NCBI GenBank assembly: GCA_026982475.1
Contig: JALSHB010000177.1
Coordinates: 1-48,582 of the forward strand
Reading direction: 5' to 3'
Length of the DNA stretch: 48,582 nt
Source of the DNA: Chromatiales bacterium
GTDB taxonomy: Bacteria > Pseudomonadota > Gammaproteobacteria > SZUA-152
The position numbers and the translations under genes were made by a program. This document shows positions 5,593-48,341 of this stretch, piece after piece. The notes under the pieces are model-generated. The model did no database searches and had not been told where the DNA came from. It was given only the letters and a program-made list of their open reading frames with translations. The number at the start of each line of letters is the position of its first letter. Position 1 is the stretch's first letter.

Positions 5593-6075
5593 TCAAGCGT
5601 CTTTCATGTCGAGAAACATGAGGCCGCACTGTTTTCCGGTGTGGACCACCAGGCAGCAGGCGCGAAGCCCCATGCCGGGAGGGGCGGTATTTGCGGGCAG
5701 GTCCACCTCGACGACGTCGCCTTCATGCAGGTTCAGCTTTCCGCATTCGACGCCGATGCCCCGTGCGTTCACGTCGCAGGTGCGCGTGGTGCCAAGGTCC
5801 TTGCCTCGCCGGTGCAGGCGAACGTCCTGCCTCGCTGTGCGGCGCCGGTCCCTGCGATGTTCCGATGGGTAGCAGGACGGGCAGGTTGTCGCGCTCTTTC
5901 TTCGCCAGTCGCTGAGTGTGTCACTCGCGACAAGACGAGGGTGCTCTGCCGTGTTGTTGGCGGAGGTGGTGTTCGTATCTCGCCGTTTTAAGTCTTCGAT
6001 TTTCGGAAAGGCCTGATAGGGCCCGGCAATCTTGCGGATGGGTGGGGGGTATATATCGGGGTTTGCTCTAGCCAT
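5593..6075 (-). CDS. PilZ domain-containing protein
   Basis: C-terminal RRTARQDVRLHRRGKDLGTTRTCDVNARGIGVEC...VEVDLP pattern typical of PilZ; SD-like GAAGGA upstream of the ATG. Confidence 0.6.
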   Translation of the reverse strand: MARANPDIYPPPIRKIAGPYQAFPKIEDLKRRDTNTTSANNTAEHPRLVASDTLSDWRRKSATTCPSCYPSEHRRDRRRTARQDVRLHRRGKDLGTTRTCDVNARGIGVECGKLNLHEGDVVEVDLPANTAPPGMGLRACCLVVHTGKQCGLMFLDMKDA

Positions 6076-6359
6076 GACCTGAATCCTTCTTTGTTGAATT
6101 TCAAAAATTTAACAAATGGTAAAGATTTCTCTGGGGCGACTGGGCGTGCAGAGTCGAACACAGACAGGTTTTCTGCGCTGCTACCCTGGTTACATTTGGC
6201 TTGTTTTTTTCTGTTTCCCGCTAACTGTAGTTGGGTTTTGTTATTTGGCTACCCCTGTCCACAGGTAGGAGGACGGGACTCAACAGAAGTTCCATTCGCA
6301 GGCGGGTTTTCGGCCGGAGAATGGGGGCAGCGGGTTGCGGCGGGAAGGATCGGGAGGGC

Positions 6360-26970: not shown

Positions 26971-27065
26971 TATGTGTTCCAGGCTGTCCGTTCCATTGAC
27001 TGGCACCGATGCTATTCCCGGTGGCCCGCCCCGTCTGCTACCTGGGTTGCACCTCCGGGATGGCG

Positions 27066-35237: not shown

Positions 35238-37169
35238 ATGAAGAAGGCAGAGTTCACCCCCCCGGAAAAGAAGCCGGATATCGACATCAACAAGCCTGCG
35301 GACTTCAAGCCGGGTGGCGGCTTCTGGCATCGGCCCAGTTCGGCGCTGTGGCTTTATCTGATTTTCCTCCTGGTTTCGCTCTATTTCTGGCAGGGGGCGG
35401 AAGAGGTGCAGCGCACCGAGATCCCCTACAGCGAGTTCCTGCAACGCGTGGACAAGGGCGAGGTCGTCGAGGCGGTGGTGAGCGAGAAGATCATCACTGG
35501 CACGCTGACGGAGACCGACCCCAAGACCGGCAAGCCGCGCCGCTTCGTCACCGTGCCGCTGTGGAACAACGACCTGGCCAAGGAGCTGGAAGAGAAGGGC
35601 GTCAAGTACACCGTGCGCCCGAGCAACGACTGGCTGAGCAGCTTCCTCTTCAACTGGGTGCTGCCCTTCGGCCTGCTGTTCCTGTTGTGGGGCTGGATGG
35701 CCAAGCGCATGGCTGGCGCCGGCAAGGGTTTCCTCAATATCGGCAACCATATCCGCATCCACCCGGAAGGCGATGTGAAGGTGACCTTCGATGACGTTGC
35801 CGGGGCGGAAGAGGCAAAGACCGAACTCAGCGAGACCATCGCCTTCCTACGTGACCCCACGGTGCTGCAACGACTCGGCGGTCATGCGCCCAAGGGGGTG
35901 TTGCTGGTGGGGCCGCCCGGCACCGGCAAGACCCTGCTGGCGCGCGCCGTGGCCGGCGAGGCCCATGTACCATTTTTCAATATCAGTGGTTCCGAGTTCA
36001 TCGAGATGTTCGTCGGCATGGGCGCGGCGCGGGTGCGCGAGCTGTTCGAACAGGCCCGGCAGAAGGCGCCCTGCATCATCTTCATCGACGAACTGGATGC
36101 CATCGGCGGCGCGCGCGGCATGGCCCCGGTGATGACCGGCGGCCACGACGAGCGCGAACAGACCCTCAATCAGCTGCTCACCGAGATGGACGGCTTCGAC
36201 CCCTCCGTGGGCGTGGTGGTGATGGCCGCCACCAACCGTCCCGAAATCCTCGACAAGGCCCTGCTGCGCGCCGGCCGCTTCGATCGCCAGATCGTGGTCG
36301 ACAAGCCGGACCTGGAGGCGCGCCTGGCAATCCTCAAACTGCATACCAGGAAGCTGAAAATGGCCGATGACGTGGACCTGCGCGTGGTGGCCCAGCGCAC
36401 CCCGGGCTTCGTCGGCGCCGACCTGGCCAATATCGCCAACGAGGCGGCGATCCTGGCCGTGCGTTACAAGCACGAGGCCGTCACCATGGCCGACTTCGAG
36501 GCCGCCATCGACCGTGTCATCGCCGGGCCGGAGAAAAAGAACCGTGGCCTGAGCGCGGCGGAAAAGCGCCGTGTCGCCTTCCATGAATCGGGGCACACCC
36601 TGGTGGCGGAAAACGTGCCCACCGGCGAGCCGGTGCACAAGGTCTCCATCATTCCCCGCGGCGTGGCGGCGCTGGGCTATACGCTGCAACTGCCGGTGGA
36701 AGAGAAATTCCTTTCCACGGAAAACGAACTGCGCGATCAGATCGCCATCCTGCTGGGCGGCCGGGTGGCCGAGGAGATCGTCTTCGGCGATGTCTCCAGC
36801 GGCGCCTCCAATGACCTGGAGCGCGCCTCGGAGATCGCCCGCAACATGGTGACCCGCCTGGGCATGAGTGAAAAACTGGGACCGCTGACCTGGGGAATCC
36901 ACCGGGAGTTGCAGTTTCTGGGGCAGAGCAGCGAAGAGCGGAATTTCAGCGAGGAGACCGCACGACTGATCGATGCCGAGGTCAGAAGGCTGGTCGAGGA
37001 GGGCCGCCAGCGGGCGATGGAGATCATTACCGGACAGCGCGCCATTCTGGATGACCTGGCCCATGCGCTGGAAGAAAAGGAAGTGCTGGACGGCGAGGAG
37101 GTGGAAGCGATCATCCGCCGCCGAAAGGAAACCGGGAAAGGCGAGAAAAACGAGGAGCGTAGAGCATGA
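35238..37169 (+). CDS. ftsH: ATP-dependent zinc metalloprotease FtsH
   Basis: [42 protein letters not shown] zinc motif; N-terminal TM segments. Confidence 0.93.
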
Positions 37170-37894
37170 ACCCCGCGTCGGCTTTTTTCGATGAAAGTAT
37201 CCGCTGTCTGAAACGGTCGCCGCTTTTTCGCGGCCTGGCGCCGAGCGCCATTGCCGACATGGTCTCACGCTGCCGGCGCGAGACCTGGAAGCGTCGCCGC
37301 CAGCTGCCCATGGAGGAGACCTGGAAGCGCTTTCATATCCTGCTCTCGGGACGGGTGCGCCTCAGCCGCGGCAATCCCGAAAACGGCCGCATGATCACGC
37401 TGTTCCTGCTCGGCCCCGGCGAACCGTTTTGCATCTTCAGCCTGCTGGATGGCAAGCCCCACGAGGTGATGCTGGAAACCCTGGATGACGTCAGCCTGCT
37501 GAGCCTGCCCATGAACGAGGCCCGCCAGTGGCTCGATGCGCACCCGGAATTCAATCGCCAGCTGTTGCCCTACCTGGGCGAGCAGATGTGCAGCCTGGCC
37601 GGACTGGCCTCGGACCTGGCCTTGCACGATACGGAGACGCGCCTGGCGCGGCTGATCCTGCGCCATGTGGATTCGGATTCGCCGCAGCAGCACGTCACGC
37701 CGCGGCTGATCAATGACCTCTCCCACGAATCCCTGGCCGAGATGATCGGCAGCGTGCGGGTGGTGGTCAATCGCCAGCTGCAACACTGGAAACAGGAAGG
37801 CATCGTCGATGCCCATCGCGGCCACCTGGAGGTGGAGGCCTTGCAGGAGCTGGTGAGACGGGCCGAGGAACTCCCTCACAAGGTGCCGGCCTGA
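37166..37894 (+). CDS. Crp/Fnr family transcriptional regulator
   Basis: Cyclic-nucleotide-binding-like fold (FHILLSGRVRLSRGNPENGRMITLFLLGPGEPFCIFSLLDG) + HTH (INDLSHESLAEMIGSVRVVVNRQLQHWKQEGIV); ATGA overlap with ftsH. Confidence 0.9.
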   Translation: MNPASAFFDESIRCLKRSPLFRGLAPSAIADMVSRCRRETWKRRRQLPMEETWKRFHILLSGRVRLSRGNPENGRMITLFLLGPGEPFCIFSLLDGKPHEVMLETLDDVSLLSLPMNEARQWLDAHPEFNRQLLPYLGEQMCSLAGLASDLALHDTETRLARLILRHVDSDSPQQHVTPRLINDLSHESLAEMIGSVRVVVNRQLQHWKQEGIVDAHRGHLEVEALQELVRRAEELPHKVPA

Positions 37895-38588
37895 TGTTGT
37901 CCAATGCGCATTCCCGCGGCGTCGTCGACGTCAAGGATCTGCTGCGCCATTCGCCGCTCTTCGAAGGGCTGGACGATGCGGTGCTGGACGAGATGCTGAG
38001 CCATTTCCGCCGCGAGACCTGGCGGCAGGGCCGTCAGGTCGATGGCCAGCAGTGCGGTGAGCGCTTTCACATCATCCTCGCCGGGCGGCTGAAAATGGGG
38101 CAGATCAATGCCGACACCGGCAGAATGGTGACCCTGTTTCTGCTCCAGCCGGGCGATGCTTTCGATGTCATCAGCCTGCTGGACGGCCAGCCCGACCCCC
38201 TCATCTTCGAGGCGCGGGATGATCTGATGATGCTCTCCACGCCGATGCAGGAGGCGCGCCGCTGGATCGAGCGTTGCATGACACGGAAACCCGCCTCGCG
38301 CGTCTGATCCTGCGTCATGTCCAGCACGAAGAGCCGGGCCAGCCCCTGCGTCTGATTCACAACCTTTCCCACGAGGCCCTGGCGGAGATGATCGGCAGCG
38401 TGCGGGTGGTGGTCAACCGCCAGCTGCAACACTGGCAACGCGATGGCGTGGTGGTGACCCGGCGCGGTGAACTGATCATCAAGGAACTGGAGACATTGCT
38501 GAAAAAGGCCATGCACCTTTCACCCTTTCCCCATTCCTCTCCTTCTTCCCGCTCTCCCCATTCCTCCCACCATTCATCGCCCTCGTAG
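37894..38588 (+). pseudogene. Second Crp/Fnr paralog, disrupted by an internal deletion/frameshift
   Basis: N-part frame 37894-38307 and HTH-part frame 38274-38588 are both homologous to 37166-37894; about 82 nt missing at the junction near 38272. Confidence 0.75.
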
Positions 38589-38621: not shown

Positions 38622-38664
38622 TGTAACCCTGGTAGCAGAAAAAATGCGGTGTGGCGGGTAACAA
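38622..38664 (+). promoter_or_regulatory. Candidate class II Crp/Fnr-type promoter: TGTAACCCTGGTAGCA-N21-TAACAA
   Basis: Dyad 38622-38637, -10-like 38659-38664; same geometry as sites at 43626 and 47165. Confidence 0.45.
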
Positions 38665-38723: not shown

Positions 38724-39239
38724 ATGGTTGAGGAAAACAGTTGTGTTGCGGTCTACGACAATCATCTCCAGGCCGAGGAGGCCGTGCGGCAGTTGCTGGA
38801 ACAGGGCTTCGCGGCCGACAAGCTGTCCATCGTCGGCAAGGGCTACCAGCGCGAGGAACACCCCATCGGTTTTTACAATACCGGCGAGCGCATGAAATTC
38901 TGGGGGGCGCAAGGCGCCTTCTGGGGAGGTCTGTGGGGTCTGTTGCTGGGGGCGGCCTTTTTCTGGGTGCCCGGCCTGGGCACCGTGGTCATCGCCGGGC
39001 CACTGGTGAGCGCGCTGGTTACGGCGCTGGAAGGCGCGGCCGTGGTTGGCGGGCTCAGTGCCCTCGGCGCGGCGCTCTACAGCATTGGCATTCCCAGGGA
39101 CAGCATCATCCGCTATGAAACGGCCATCAAGTCGGACCACTACCTGCTCATCGTGCACGGCGACCAGAGTCAGGTGGAACAGGCCCACGAGGTACTGGCG
39201 GGCGGAGACGCCCGGGATGTGACGATTCATCTCAGCTGA
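38724..39239 (+). CDS. General-stress-protein-like membrane protein
   Basis: N-terminal CVAVYDNHLQAEEAVRQLLEQGFAADKLSIVGKGYQ, Gly-rich hydrophobic middle, SDHYLLIVHGDQSQVEQAHEVL. Confidence 0.65.
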   Translation: MVEENSCVAVYDNHLQAEEAVRQLLEQGFAADKLSIVGKGYQREEHPIGFYNTGERMKFWGAQGAFWGGLWGLLLGAAFFWVPGLGTVVIAGPLVSALVTALEGAAVVGGLSALGAALYSIGIPRDSIIRYETAIKSDHYLLIVHGDQSQVEQAHEVLAGGDARDVTIHLS

Positions 39240-43151: not shown

Positions 43152-43565
43152 TCAGAAGTACATGCCCGGCGGCCCGCCGCGAACCATGATCCAGTGCACC
43201 TCACCCATCATCATCCAGCTCATGAGGATGAAGCCGATGATGCCCAGCAGCGCCATCACCAGCGCCGCCAGCAGGGCGCTGCCGAAATTGTCGATCTCGA
43301 AATCCTTCACCATCGCCGCGGTCAGCCACAGGGTGAAGGCGTTGATGACCAGGGCGAACAGGCCGAAGGTGAGCACCGTCAGCGGCAGGGTCAGTATCCA
43401 CAGCAGCGGGCGGATGAAGGCATTGACCAGGCCCAGCACCAGGGCCGCCCACAACAGGCCACCCGTGGAGTGCGCGCGCACCCCCGGCACGATGCGGGTG
43501 ACGATCCATAGTCCCGCCGCCGTGACCAGCCAGATGAAGAGAAGGCCTGTCAGCATGGGTTTCAC
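43152..43565 (-). CDS. Phage-holin-family (PF04020-like) 4-TM membrane protein
   Basis: IVPGVRAHSTGGLLWAALVLGLVNAFIRPLLWILTLPLTVLTFGLFALVINAFTLWLTA. Confidence 0.8.
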   Translation of the reverse strand: MKPMLTGLLFIWLVTAAGLWIVTRIVPGVRAHSTGGLLWAALVLGLVNAFIRPLLWILTLPLTVLTFGLFALVINAFTLWLTAAMVKDFEIDNFGSALLAALVMALLGIIGFILMSWMMMGEVHWIMVRGGPPGMYF

Positions 43566-43598: not shown

Positions 43599-43668
43599 AG
43601 TGTAGCCGCAGACGGCACGACGCTGTGCAACCTGGGTTACAGATGCCGGCCGCGCGCGGTGCTAGTGT
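43599..43668. promoter_or_regulatory. Divergent class II-type promoter pair sharing one dyad TGCAACCTGGGTTACA (43626-43641)
   Basis: Plus: N21 then TAGTGT (43663-43668). Minus: N21 then TACACT (43604-43599). Confidence 0.55.
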
Positions 43669-43697: not shown

Positions 43698-43967
43698 ATG
43701 GAGGTGGCCGTGGCGCGTTACGATTTTTCCGCGGACGCGCGTGCGCAAATTGGCGGGCACGAGCATGGCCTGCTGAAGATCGTCTACACCAAGGCGGAGC
43801 ACAAGGTGGTGGGCGTTCATGTGCTGATGGAAGGTGCCTCCGACCTGATGGGCGAGGCGGCCCTGCTGGTGCGCCACGGCCTGCCGCTGGAGGCCATCGC
43901 CGTGGCCATCCACCCTCACCCGACATTGACCGAGTCCTTTGCACAGGCCGCGTGCATGAACCACTAG
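43698..43967 (+). pseudogene. C-terminal fragment of a dihydrolipoamide dehydrogenase / transhydrogenase-like flavoprotein
   Basis: VARYDFSADARAQIGGHEHGLLKIVYTKAEHKVVGVHVLMEGASDLMGEAALLVRHGLPLEAIAVAIHPHPTLTESFAQAA = Pyr_redox dimerisation domain only. Confidence 0.75.
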
Positions 43968-44254
43968 TGCTCTTTCAAGGTAATAACACGGATTCAGTTG
44001 GTCTGTCAGCGTTCAGGGCAAGGCGCGCCTCGCAGCGAATGGCCTTAGTCCTTTGCAAGAGGCGCACCAACAGTAGGCGCTTTAGGCGACGCGGCCATGG
44101 ACGCTGACAGGCCAACCCTTCGGGCGCTCCTGTGGTGTCCCGCGCCCACGTTGCAGTGCTTGACAAGGGGAACAGCCATTGCCTGCGCACTGCGCCTTGC
44201 CGCGAAACACCACAGGAACGCTGAGTCCGTGTTATTACCTTGAAAGAGCACTAG
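43964..44254. mobile_element. MITE-like/foldback element with 34-bp terminal inverted repeats
   Basis: CTAGTGCTCTTTCAAGGTAATAACACGGATTCAG ... CTGAGTCCGTGTTATTACCTTGAAAGAGCACTAG (1 mismatch); subterminal regions also inverted-similar; no transposase. Confidence 0.85.
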
Positions 44255-44299: not shown

Positions 44300-45325
44300 A
44301 TGACGACGCAACAGCAACTCCAGGCCACCATCGAACAGATGGTGCAGACGGGCAAGGGCATTCTCGCCGCCGATGAAAGCCTGCCCACCATCGCCAAGCG
44401 TTTCGCCCTCATCGGCGTCGAATCGACACAGGAGAACCGCCGTGCCTGGCGCGCCCTGTTGTTCACCGCGCCGGGCATCGAGGATTACATCAGTGGCGTG
44501 ATCGAGTTCGAGGAGACCCTGAGCCAGACCACCGACGACGGCACGCCACTGCCCGAGGTGTTGGCGCGGCGTGGCATCGTCCCCGGCGTCAAGGTGGACA
44601 AGGGCAAGGGGCCGCTGGCCCTGTCGCCGGGTGATCTCATTACTTATGGTCTCGATGGCCTGGCGGAACGATTGCAACAATACAAGCAGCAGGGTGCGCG
44701 CTTTGCCAAGTGGCGCGAGGTCTATCCCATCGGCAGGCACAACCCCTCGTCGCTGGGCATCACTGCCAATGCCGAGATGCTGGCGCGCTATGCGGCGGTC
44801 TGCCAGGAACAGGGCATCGTGCCCATCGTCGAGCCGGAGGTGTTGATGGATGGCGACCACAGCCTGGCCCGTTGCGCCGAGGTGACCGAGGCGGTGCAAA
44901 AGGAAATCTTTCATGCCCTGCACCGCCACCATGTCACGCTCGAACACATGGTGCTCAAGCCCAACATGGTGCTGCCAGGGAAGGACTGCCCGCAACAGGC
45001 CAGCGCCGAAGAGGTCGCCGCGGCCACGGTGCGGGTGCTGCGCCGCTGTGTGCCGGCGGCGGTGCCGAGCATCAATTTTCTCTCCGGCGGCCTGAGCCCG
45101 GCGCAGGCCACGGCCAATCTCAACGCCATCAATGCCGGTTTCCCCCTTGAACCCTGGCTGCTGTCGTTTTCCTATGGCCGGGCGCTGCAGCAGCCGGTGC
45201 TGCAGGCCTGGCGGGGCAGGGCGGAGAATGTGCCGGCGGCGCAGCGGGCGTTGCTCAAGCGCGCGCGGCTCAATGGCGCGGCGCAGCGGGGGGAGTACCA
45301 GGCGTCCATGGAGGAAGATGACTGA
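44300..45325 (+). CDS. Fructose-bisphosphate aldolase class I
   Basis: MVQTGKGILAADESLPTIAKRFALIGVESTQENRRAWRALLFTAPGIEDYISGVI; LEHMVLKPNMVLPGKD; INFLSGGLSPAQATANLNAIN. Confidence 0.95.
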   Translation: MTTQQQLQATIEQMVQTGKGILAADESLPTIAKRFALIGVESTQENRRAWRALLFTAPGIEDYISGVIEFEETLSQTTDDGTPLPEVLARRGIVPGVKVDKGKGPLALSPGDLITYGLDGLAERLQQYKQQGARFAKWREVYPIGRHNPSSLGITANAEMLARYAAVCQEQGIVPIVEPEVLMDGDHSLARCAEVTEAVQKEIFHALHRHHVTLEHMVLKPNMVLPGKDCPQQASAEEVAAATVRVLRRCVPAAVPSINFLSGGLSPAQATANLNAINAGFPLEPWLLSFSYGRALQQPVLQAWRGRAENVPAAQRALLKRARLNGAAQRGEYQASMEEDD

Positions 45326-46760: not shown

Positions 46761-47084
46761 TCAGTCATGAATGACGATACGCCGGGTTTCCGTCTCGATG
46801 TCCACCACCTGAGCGGCCTCATGGGCGGCTTTCGCCAGTTCCGCCAGCGCCGTTTCGTCATTTGCCCGGGCCAGGGCCTTGAGGGTGTCTTCGGCGTGGC
46901 AGTCGATGTGCTGACCGGCAAACTTGCCGGGCTTGCAGCCGCAGGCGGGGGCATCGATGGCCATGTCGAAATCCACCGGCATTTGCAGGATTACCGGCTC
47001 GGCGTGGCGCACCTGCGCGAGGGCCTTCTTGGCCGTGATCGGGCCTTGCCAGTCGAGGGCCGGCATGTTGCTGTAGTCGCGCAT
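46761..47084 (-). CDS. Hypothetical protein with cysteine cluster
   Basis: MRDYSNMPALDWQGPITAKKALAQVRHAEPVILQMPVDFDMAIDAPACGCKPG; AAGGAG SD 8 nt upstream of the ATG at 47084. Confidence 0.65.
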   Translation of the reverse strand: MRDYSNMPALDWQGPITAKKALAQVRHAEPVILQMPVDFDMAIDAPACGCKPGKFAGQHIDCHAEDTLKALARANDETALAELAKAAHEAAQVVDIETETRRIVIHD

Positions 47085-47136: not shown

Positions 47137-47207
47137 ATTGTATCCCGGTCAATTCTTCATGGAGTGCAACCTAAGTTACTGACGCCGGTGGTTCCTTGTC
47201 CTATGGT
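47137..47207. promoter_or_regulatory. Divergent class II-type promoter pair sharing dyad TGCAACCTAAGTTACT (47165-47180)
   Basis: Plus: N21 then TATGGT (47202-47207). Minus: N22 then TACAAT (47142-47137). Confidence 0.55.
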
Positions 47208-47285: not shown

Positions 47286-48341
47286 ATGGAATCGGATGCA
47301 TTGAAGAAGATGCTGCGCGACATACTGCTGGCGCGGGCCTTCGAAGAGCGGGCGGCGCAGGAATACGCACAGGGCAACATCGCCGGCTTTCTGCATCTCT
47401 ATCCGGGCGAGGAGGCGGTGGGCGTCGGTGTGCTGCATGCGGCGGAACCGGCGGACTATGTCGTTTCCACCTACCGTGAACACGTCCACGCCTTGGTGCG
47501 CGGCGTGCCGGCGCGGGTGGTGATGGCCGAGCTGTTCGGGCGCAAGACCGGCTGCAGCGGCGGCATGGGTGGCTCCATGCACCTGTTCGACCGCGAACGC
47601 CGCTTCATGGGCGGCTATGCCATCGTCGGCGAAACCTTCCCCGTCGCCACCGGTATCGGTTACGCCATCGCCATGCGCGAACTCCCGGAGGCGGTGATCT
47701 GCTTCTTCGGCGACGGCGCCGTCAACCAGGGCACCTTCCACGAAAGCCTCAACATGGCGGCGTTGTGGAAACTGCCGGTGCTGTTCGTGTGCGAGAACAA
47801 CCATTACCAGATAGGCACCGAGATCCATCGTCACTCGGCAGTGGCCGAGGTCTACAAGCGCGCCTGTGGCTATCGCATCCCGGCGCGCCGGGTCAACGGC
47901 ATGGACGTGCTGGCCGTGCATCGGGCCACCGCAGAGGCCCTGAGGCAGGTCCGCGCCGGCAACGGTCCACAGTTTCTCGAATGCGAGACCTACCGTTTTC
48001 GTGGCCATTCCATGGCCGATCCCGGCAGCTATCGCCCCAAGGTGGAATTGCAGGCCTTCGAAAAAGGCGAGGATCCGGTAAAGATCGCCATTGCCGAGAC
48101 CGTGGCCACCTATCCCTCGGCAGAGCAGATTGCGGCTGTGGGCAGCGATAATATCGACAACCTGATGGGTAGCCTGCACAGCGGCGGACACTTTCCGCCC
48201 GAGCATCTCGATGCCATGCAGGCGGCAATCGCCGCCGAGGTGGAGGAGGCCGTGCGTTTCGCCAGCGACAGCCCCGAACCGACCCTGGCCGATGCCGAGG
48301 CGGCCCTGGACTGCAACCGTCACGGGGAGGTGCTGATCTGA
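47286..48341 (+). CDS. pdhA: Pyruvate (or acetoin) dehydrogenase E1 component alpha subunit
   Basis: [81 protein letters not shown]. Confidence 0.93.

Follow-up and report, generated by a model that had tools for sequence, protein, structure and literature searches.

In cyanobacteria, the regulator NtcA binds GTAN8TAC boxes centred at about -41.5, with a -10 element of the form TAN3T, and single sites possibly serving two divergent genes have been reported for it as well (PMC3898017). Activation of two divergent promoters from one target has also been described for CRP in E. coli (El-Robh and Busby 2002, as cited in PMC3105977 and PMC5499769), and 11 natural divergent cases with a single CRP site are on record in that species (PMC3105977). 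In M. tuberculosis, the Crp/Fnr protein Cmr acts from a single site on the divergent genes cmr and rv1676, where it is autoregulatory and both activates and represses (PMC5499769). Finally, published work on bidirectional promoters of E. coli, whose start sites are spaced far more tightly than those predicted below, found that switching on one direction tends to go with repression of the opposite one; where there is -10 symmetry, the overlap of the two promoters is at the -10 element (PMC12825309).

Here we describe a dyad at 43626-43641 of a gammaproteobacterial contig of 48,582 nucleotides, the whole of which was analysed and is called the window below. Judging from its sequence context, this dyad is very probably the site of one Crp/Fnr dimer, most likely encoded at 37166-38588, which would act in class II fashion in both directions. 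The locus resembles cyanobacterial class II NtcA promoters in its type of box, its predicted centre near -41.5, its TAN3T -10 elements and the recognition helix of the candidate binder. It differs from them in that this regulator is only distantly related to NtcA (NtcA, TIGR03697, is its best NCBIfam profile, yet with 52 bits against a cut-off of 245 the curated model is not reached), in the extra conserved positions of the box (TGYWACC/GGTWRCA) and in the genes concerned, which are of carbon/energy and stress types. As with E. coli CRP, one CRP-type dimer is predicted to serve two divergent promoters, but the recognition sequence is another, the predicted centring is -41.5 on both sides, and the arrangement is conserved over species and repeated at further loci. 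The case of Cmr is similar in combining a Crp/Fnr protein, a single site and divergent genes, whereas the dyad at 43626 is not located at the gene of its regulator. Promoters with -10 symmetry likewise send divergent transcription off one compact element; here, in contrast, the predicted starts are ~83 bp apart and only the activator site would be shared. Divergent activation by one dimer is thus already known from E. coli and M. tuberculosis, and the dyad at 43626 would be a natural, conserved addition belonging to a regulon undescribed in the literature searched, in which we found no matching description of a TGTAAC/GTTACA Crp/Fnr motif and nothing relevant on such a Crp/Fnr regulon island.

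Geometry of the dyad and its flanking genes

The dyad (TGCAACCTGGGTTACA, assigned to neither strand) has arms that pair at 6/7 positions by sequence reading, with one C/A mismatch and the central TG left uncounted. On the plus strand it is followed, after 21 nucleotides (N21, 43642-43662), by TAGTGT (43663-43668), which is preceded by TGC as in an extended -10. On the minus strand, it is followed after another N21 (43605-43625) by TACACT (43599-43604). Both elements had been pointed out in a sequence-only reading of this locus and are letter-exact. Transcription is predicted to start at ~43675 (+) and ~43592 (-), which would place the dyad centre (43633.5) at -41.5 both ways; the same reading had proposed this centring, and the spacing, kept at N21 on both strands in five relatives, predicts it. 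Two properties of the site point in the same direction: a centre at about -41.5 over the -35 position, typical of class II Crp/Fnr promoters, is indicated by the spacing and by a regulon-wide peak of offsets, and a -10 at the proper distance on both strands, as expected of a single divergent site, was found at this locus, in relatives and at further sites. The plus-side -35 position matches TTGACA at 2/6 positions, so that an activator would be expected and activation is favoured over repression. A scan for sigma-70 promoters returned nothing at the dyad, as expected where promoters have no -35. The CRP consensus TGTGAN6TCACA was also tried and rejected, with 11 matches at up to two mismatches over the whole window, i.e. 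chance level, and none at the dyad.

In the mechanism that we propose, one Crp/Fnr dimer would occupy the dyad and contact polymerase via either face, recruiting it in class II manner toward the membrane protein gene on the minus strand or the flavoprotein remnant on the plus strand. Because the centre lies 41.5 bp from both predicted starts and both -10 elements stand at 21 nt, one dimer could serve either orientation, and with starts only ~83 bp apart two polymerases may hinder each other.

The minus-side gene (43152-43556, -) encodes a membrane protein of family PF04020 (Phage_holin_4_2); its holin-like name derives from Pfam and there is no sign of phage. It had been thought to start at GTG 43565 with a 5' UTR of ~27 nt, but the Shine-Dalgarno sequence AGGAG (43569-43565) overlaps that codon, so ATG 43556, located 8 nt downstream of AGGAG, is probably the start and the 5' UTR would be ~36 nt. 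What had been called the flavoprotein-aldolase side does lie on the plus side, but no intact flavoprotein is found there. The gene at 43698-43967 (+) is a dihydrolipoamide-dehydrogenase-like remnant with the C-terminal dimerisation domain only (PF02852), and an inverted-repeat element of ~290 bp (43964-44254, unstranded) lies between it and a class I fructose-bisphosphate aldolase gene (44300-45325, +). Six other copies of this element, nearly complete and 85-96% identical, are present in the genome, and it is likely a MITE. In the relative G004, a full-length homologue of 470 aa, closest to dihydrolipoyl dehydrogenase although slightly under the cut-off, directly follows the same predicted promoter (L027:17337-18749). 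By comparison ~1.1 kb is absent from the window, through deletion or assembly error; the remnant retains its promoter. The aldolase gene has its own upstream box in G004 and G006, with a PTA-like gene in between in the latter, and none was found upstream of the aldolase gene of the window.

Conservation in related deep-sea bacteria

We aligned the locus in register over seven sequences, namely the window, G004, G003, G006, G001, L085 and L092, the relatives being described as related deep-sea bacteria. The dyad was kept in all of them (6/6 relatives) and both N21 spacings in 5/6, the sixth (G001) having the minus element at N21 and, on the plus strand, TATAAT two nucleotides farther out (N23). 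The left element stands at exactly N21 in 7/7 sequences, as TACACT, TACAAT, TATAAT or TACAGT, and the right one in 6/7, as TAGTGT, TAGTAT or TAGCAT. Pairwise identity reached 95% in the dyad, was 83% for the left -10 and 61% for the right one, and fell to 56–59% in the spacers and 30–39% in the outer flanks; given the identity of the spacers, shared ancestry accounts for part of this conservation. On the left, the window, G001, G004, G006 and L085 have the gene of a PF04020 membrane protein, only a partial PF04020 match is left in G003, and the left partner in L092 had no confident identity and no holin match. On the right, G004 carries the full-length flavoprotein, G006 the beginning of one, and the other relatives different genes. 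For example, a phosphoketolase gene (XFP_N) lies behind the same box in L092 (L092:5132), which suggests an acetate-type carbon route within the regulon. In L085 the flavoprotein gene is found elsewhere, behind a separate box that has TAATGT at N21.

These comparisons bear on the view that the site is a promoter toward the membrane protein gene only, the plus element being a leftover of the decayed flavoprotein or a coincidence. The plus-side gene is indeed a remnant in the window, conservation is higher for the minus -10 than for the plus one, and G001, which has no flavoprotein gene behind the site, keeps the minus element at N21 and has the plus one at N23. However, TAGTGT stands at N21 on the plus side in G003, G004 and G006, with the full-length flavoprotein behind it in G004; L085 has TATAAT and TAGTAT at N21, one on each side; and the separate flavoprotein gene of L085 has a box of its own. 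We consider a one-direction promoter unlikely. The earlier proposal of one dimer for two promoters gains support, at the level of sequence, from the conservation of N21 and from the recurrence of the layout at 47165 and at a relative's site.

A tandem Crp/Fnr pair as candidate binder

Two genes of Crp/Fnr-family regulators stand in tandem behind FtsH, ~5 kb from the dyad. The first (Crp1, 37166-37894, +) is the candidate activator and has the recognition helix IGSVRVVVNRQL. The second (Crp2, 37894-38588, +) is broken, its ligand domain and HTH lying in different frames and a stretch being missing, whereas several relatives have an intact copy; errors in assembly are another possible outcome of tandem repeats. 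With both Crp2 and the flavoprotein broken, the circuit may be decaying in the genome of the window. Membership in the superfamily is indicated by a cNMP-binding-type sensor (PF00027) and an HTH_Crp_2 domain (PF13545), both above cut-off. The helix MIGSVRVVVNRQLQHW is invariant across all seven aligned Crp1/Crp2 copies and aligns with the recognition helix of cyanobacterial NtcA. This NtcA-like helix goes together with a GTAN8TAC-type box, one arm of which is degenerate at 43626 (GCA for GTA).

Among 143 genomes of the class, the motif of the dyad (derived below) was found in 4/4 genomes with a strong orthologue (E < 1e-100) and in 19/139 others, a split with a chance of ~5e-4 as calculated by hand. 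Furthermore, in two of these four, G093 and G097, a motif site directly adjoins the Crp genes. Against the link, the motif was found without a detected Crp orthologue in G005, a fragmented genome, in G012, and in G015, which retains a Crp remnant, and a Crp gene was found without the exact motif in G017, G019 and G021. Taken together, the association of motif and orthologue, the likeness of helix and box to those of NtcA and the Crp-adjacent sites make Crp1/Crp2 the likely binder of the dyad.

The site could instead repress overlapping promoters, or be bound by another regulator encoded elsewhere. Polymerase could be blocked by a protein sitting over the -35 region, repression by NtcA is likewise known where its boxes lie downstream of -35 (PMC3898017), and the identity of the binder is something that we infer. 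On the other hand, the plus-side -35 position, with its 2/6 matches to TTGACA, leads one to expect an activator, the constancy of the N21-22 spacing over promoters agrees with class II activation, and the motif clusters around Crp1/Crp2-type genes. Repression or a different binder thus appears quite improbable next to activation by the Crp/Fnr pair.

Motif copies on the contig and in the wider regulon

With up to three mismatches, the 16-mer TGCAACCTGGGTTACA had 5 matches in the window against 0.09 expected, and their alignment yielded the motif TGYWACCNNGGTWRCA. Exact copies of TGYWACCNNGGTWRCA in the 3.0-Mb genome (n = 4; 6179, 27036, 38622 and 43626) all fall on the 48.6-kb contig, which makes up 1.6% of the genome and yet carries every one of them. 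The copy at 38622-38637 (TGTAACCCTGGTAGCA, +) precedes a YflT-domain gene (38724-39239) and has the -10-like AACAAT at N22; its counterparts in close relatives are TGTAACCCTGGTAGCA with mostly GACAAT or GATAAT at N22. The copy at 27036-27051 (-) has TAGCAT at N21 and precedes a lipoprotein-like gene. The one at 6179-6194 (-), with a soluble lytic transglycosylase-like gene on one side and an ORF (5593-6075) on the other, has no TANNNT at N21-22, which we counted against our best explanation. A weaker fifth copy (TGCAACCTAAGTTACT, 47165-47180, unstranded) is a second two-way dyad, with TATGGT at N21 (+) and TACAAT at N22 (-), between the gene for PDH E1 alpha (47286-48341, +) and an ORF ending at 46761 (-); this layout was found on both sides in G004 as well (L026:8264). 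Overall, TANNNT stands at N21 in 3/5 copies: 27036 (-), 43626 (both) and 47165 (+).

A dyad with TANNNT at N21-22 on both sides occurred once in the window and in 0 of 300 dinucleotide shuffles, by a 6-of-8 pair count whose threshold was chosen after the site had been seen; a 7-of-8 count missed the dyad since its centre and one arm position are unpaired. A wider survey covered 405 kb, made up of the window and the surroundings of Crp1 relatives in named assemblies; the assemblies with the closest of these relatives indicate that the organism is an uncultured gammaproteobacterium. The palindromic motif TGYWACYNNRGTWRCA had 46 exact occurrences, compared with 0 in the reversed control. Over 101 flanks of 51 unique sites, offset 21 had 16 instances of TANNNT and offset 22 had 10, where other offsets had ~1.3 each, counts that are not independent because many sites are orthologous. 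A chance palindrome with chance -10-like hexamers is extremely unlikely, for although TANNNT by itself is common (~1.3% per offset and flank), the retention of both spacings in relatives already disfavours it, as do the excess of matches in the window, the restriction of the motif within the genome, the reversed control and the shuffles.

The two-way layout was thus observed at three unrelated loci: 43626, 47165 and L082:7835. In our best explanation, the dyad at 43626 belongs to a local regulon whose genes are of glycolytic, PDH and stress types. We give about even chances to the broader proposition of an unreported gammaproteobacterial Crp/Fnr pair with an NtcA-type code, whose local regulon uses symmetric single-dimer promoters (-41.5 on both sides) as a repeated design, the two-way box being kept while the partners on one side (flavoprotein, phosphoketolase, others) are swapped in evolution. 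Two-way class II sites with fixed spacings in several species would be test objects for the sharing of polymerase by one dimer, and the regulon would link an uncharacterised Crp/Fnr pair of uncultured Gammaproteobacteria to genes of glycogen, glycolysis, PDH and acetate types. Moreover, the defined motif offers a handle for finding the signal to which the regulator may respond, and the recognition-helix code could be tested directly on this NtcA-like box, which occurs outside cyanobacteria.

Two of these loci deserve further description. The dyad at L082:7835, in G006, has a lipoprotein-like gene on one side and the group of FtsH and Crp genes on the other, so that the regulators would be self-controlled there. 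At 47165, the minus -10 covers the first ATG of the minus-side ORF (47138), which therefore probably begins further in, at ~47084; this ORF is small and conserved and had no Pfam hit.
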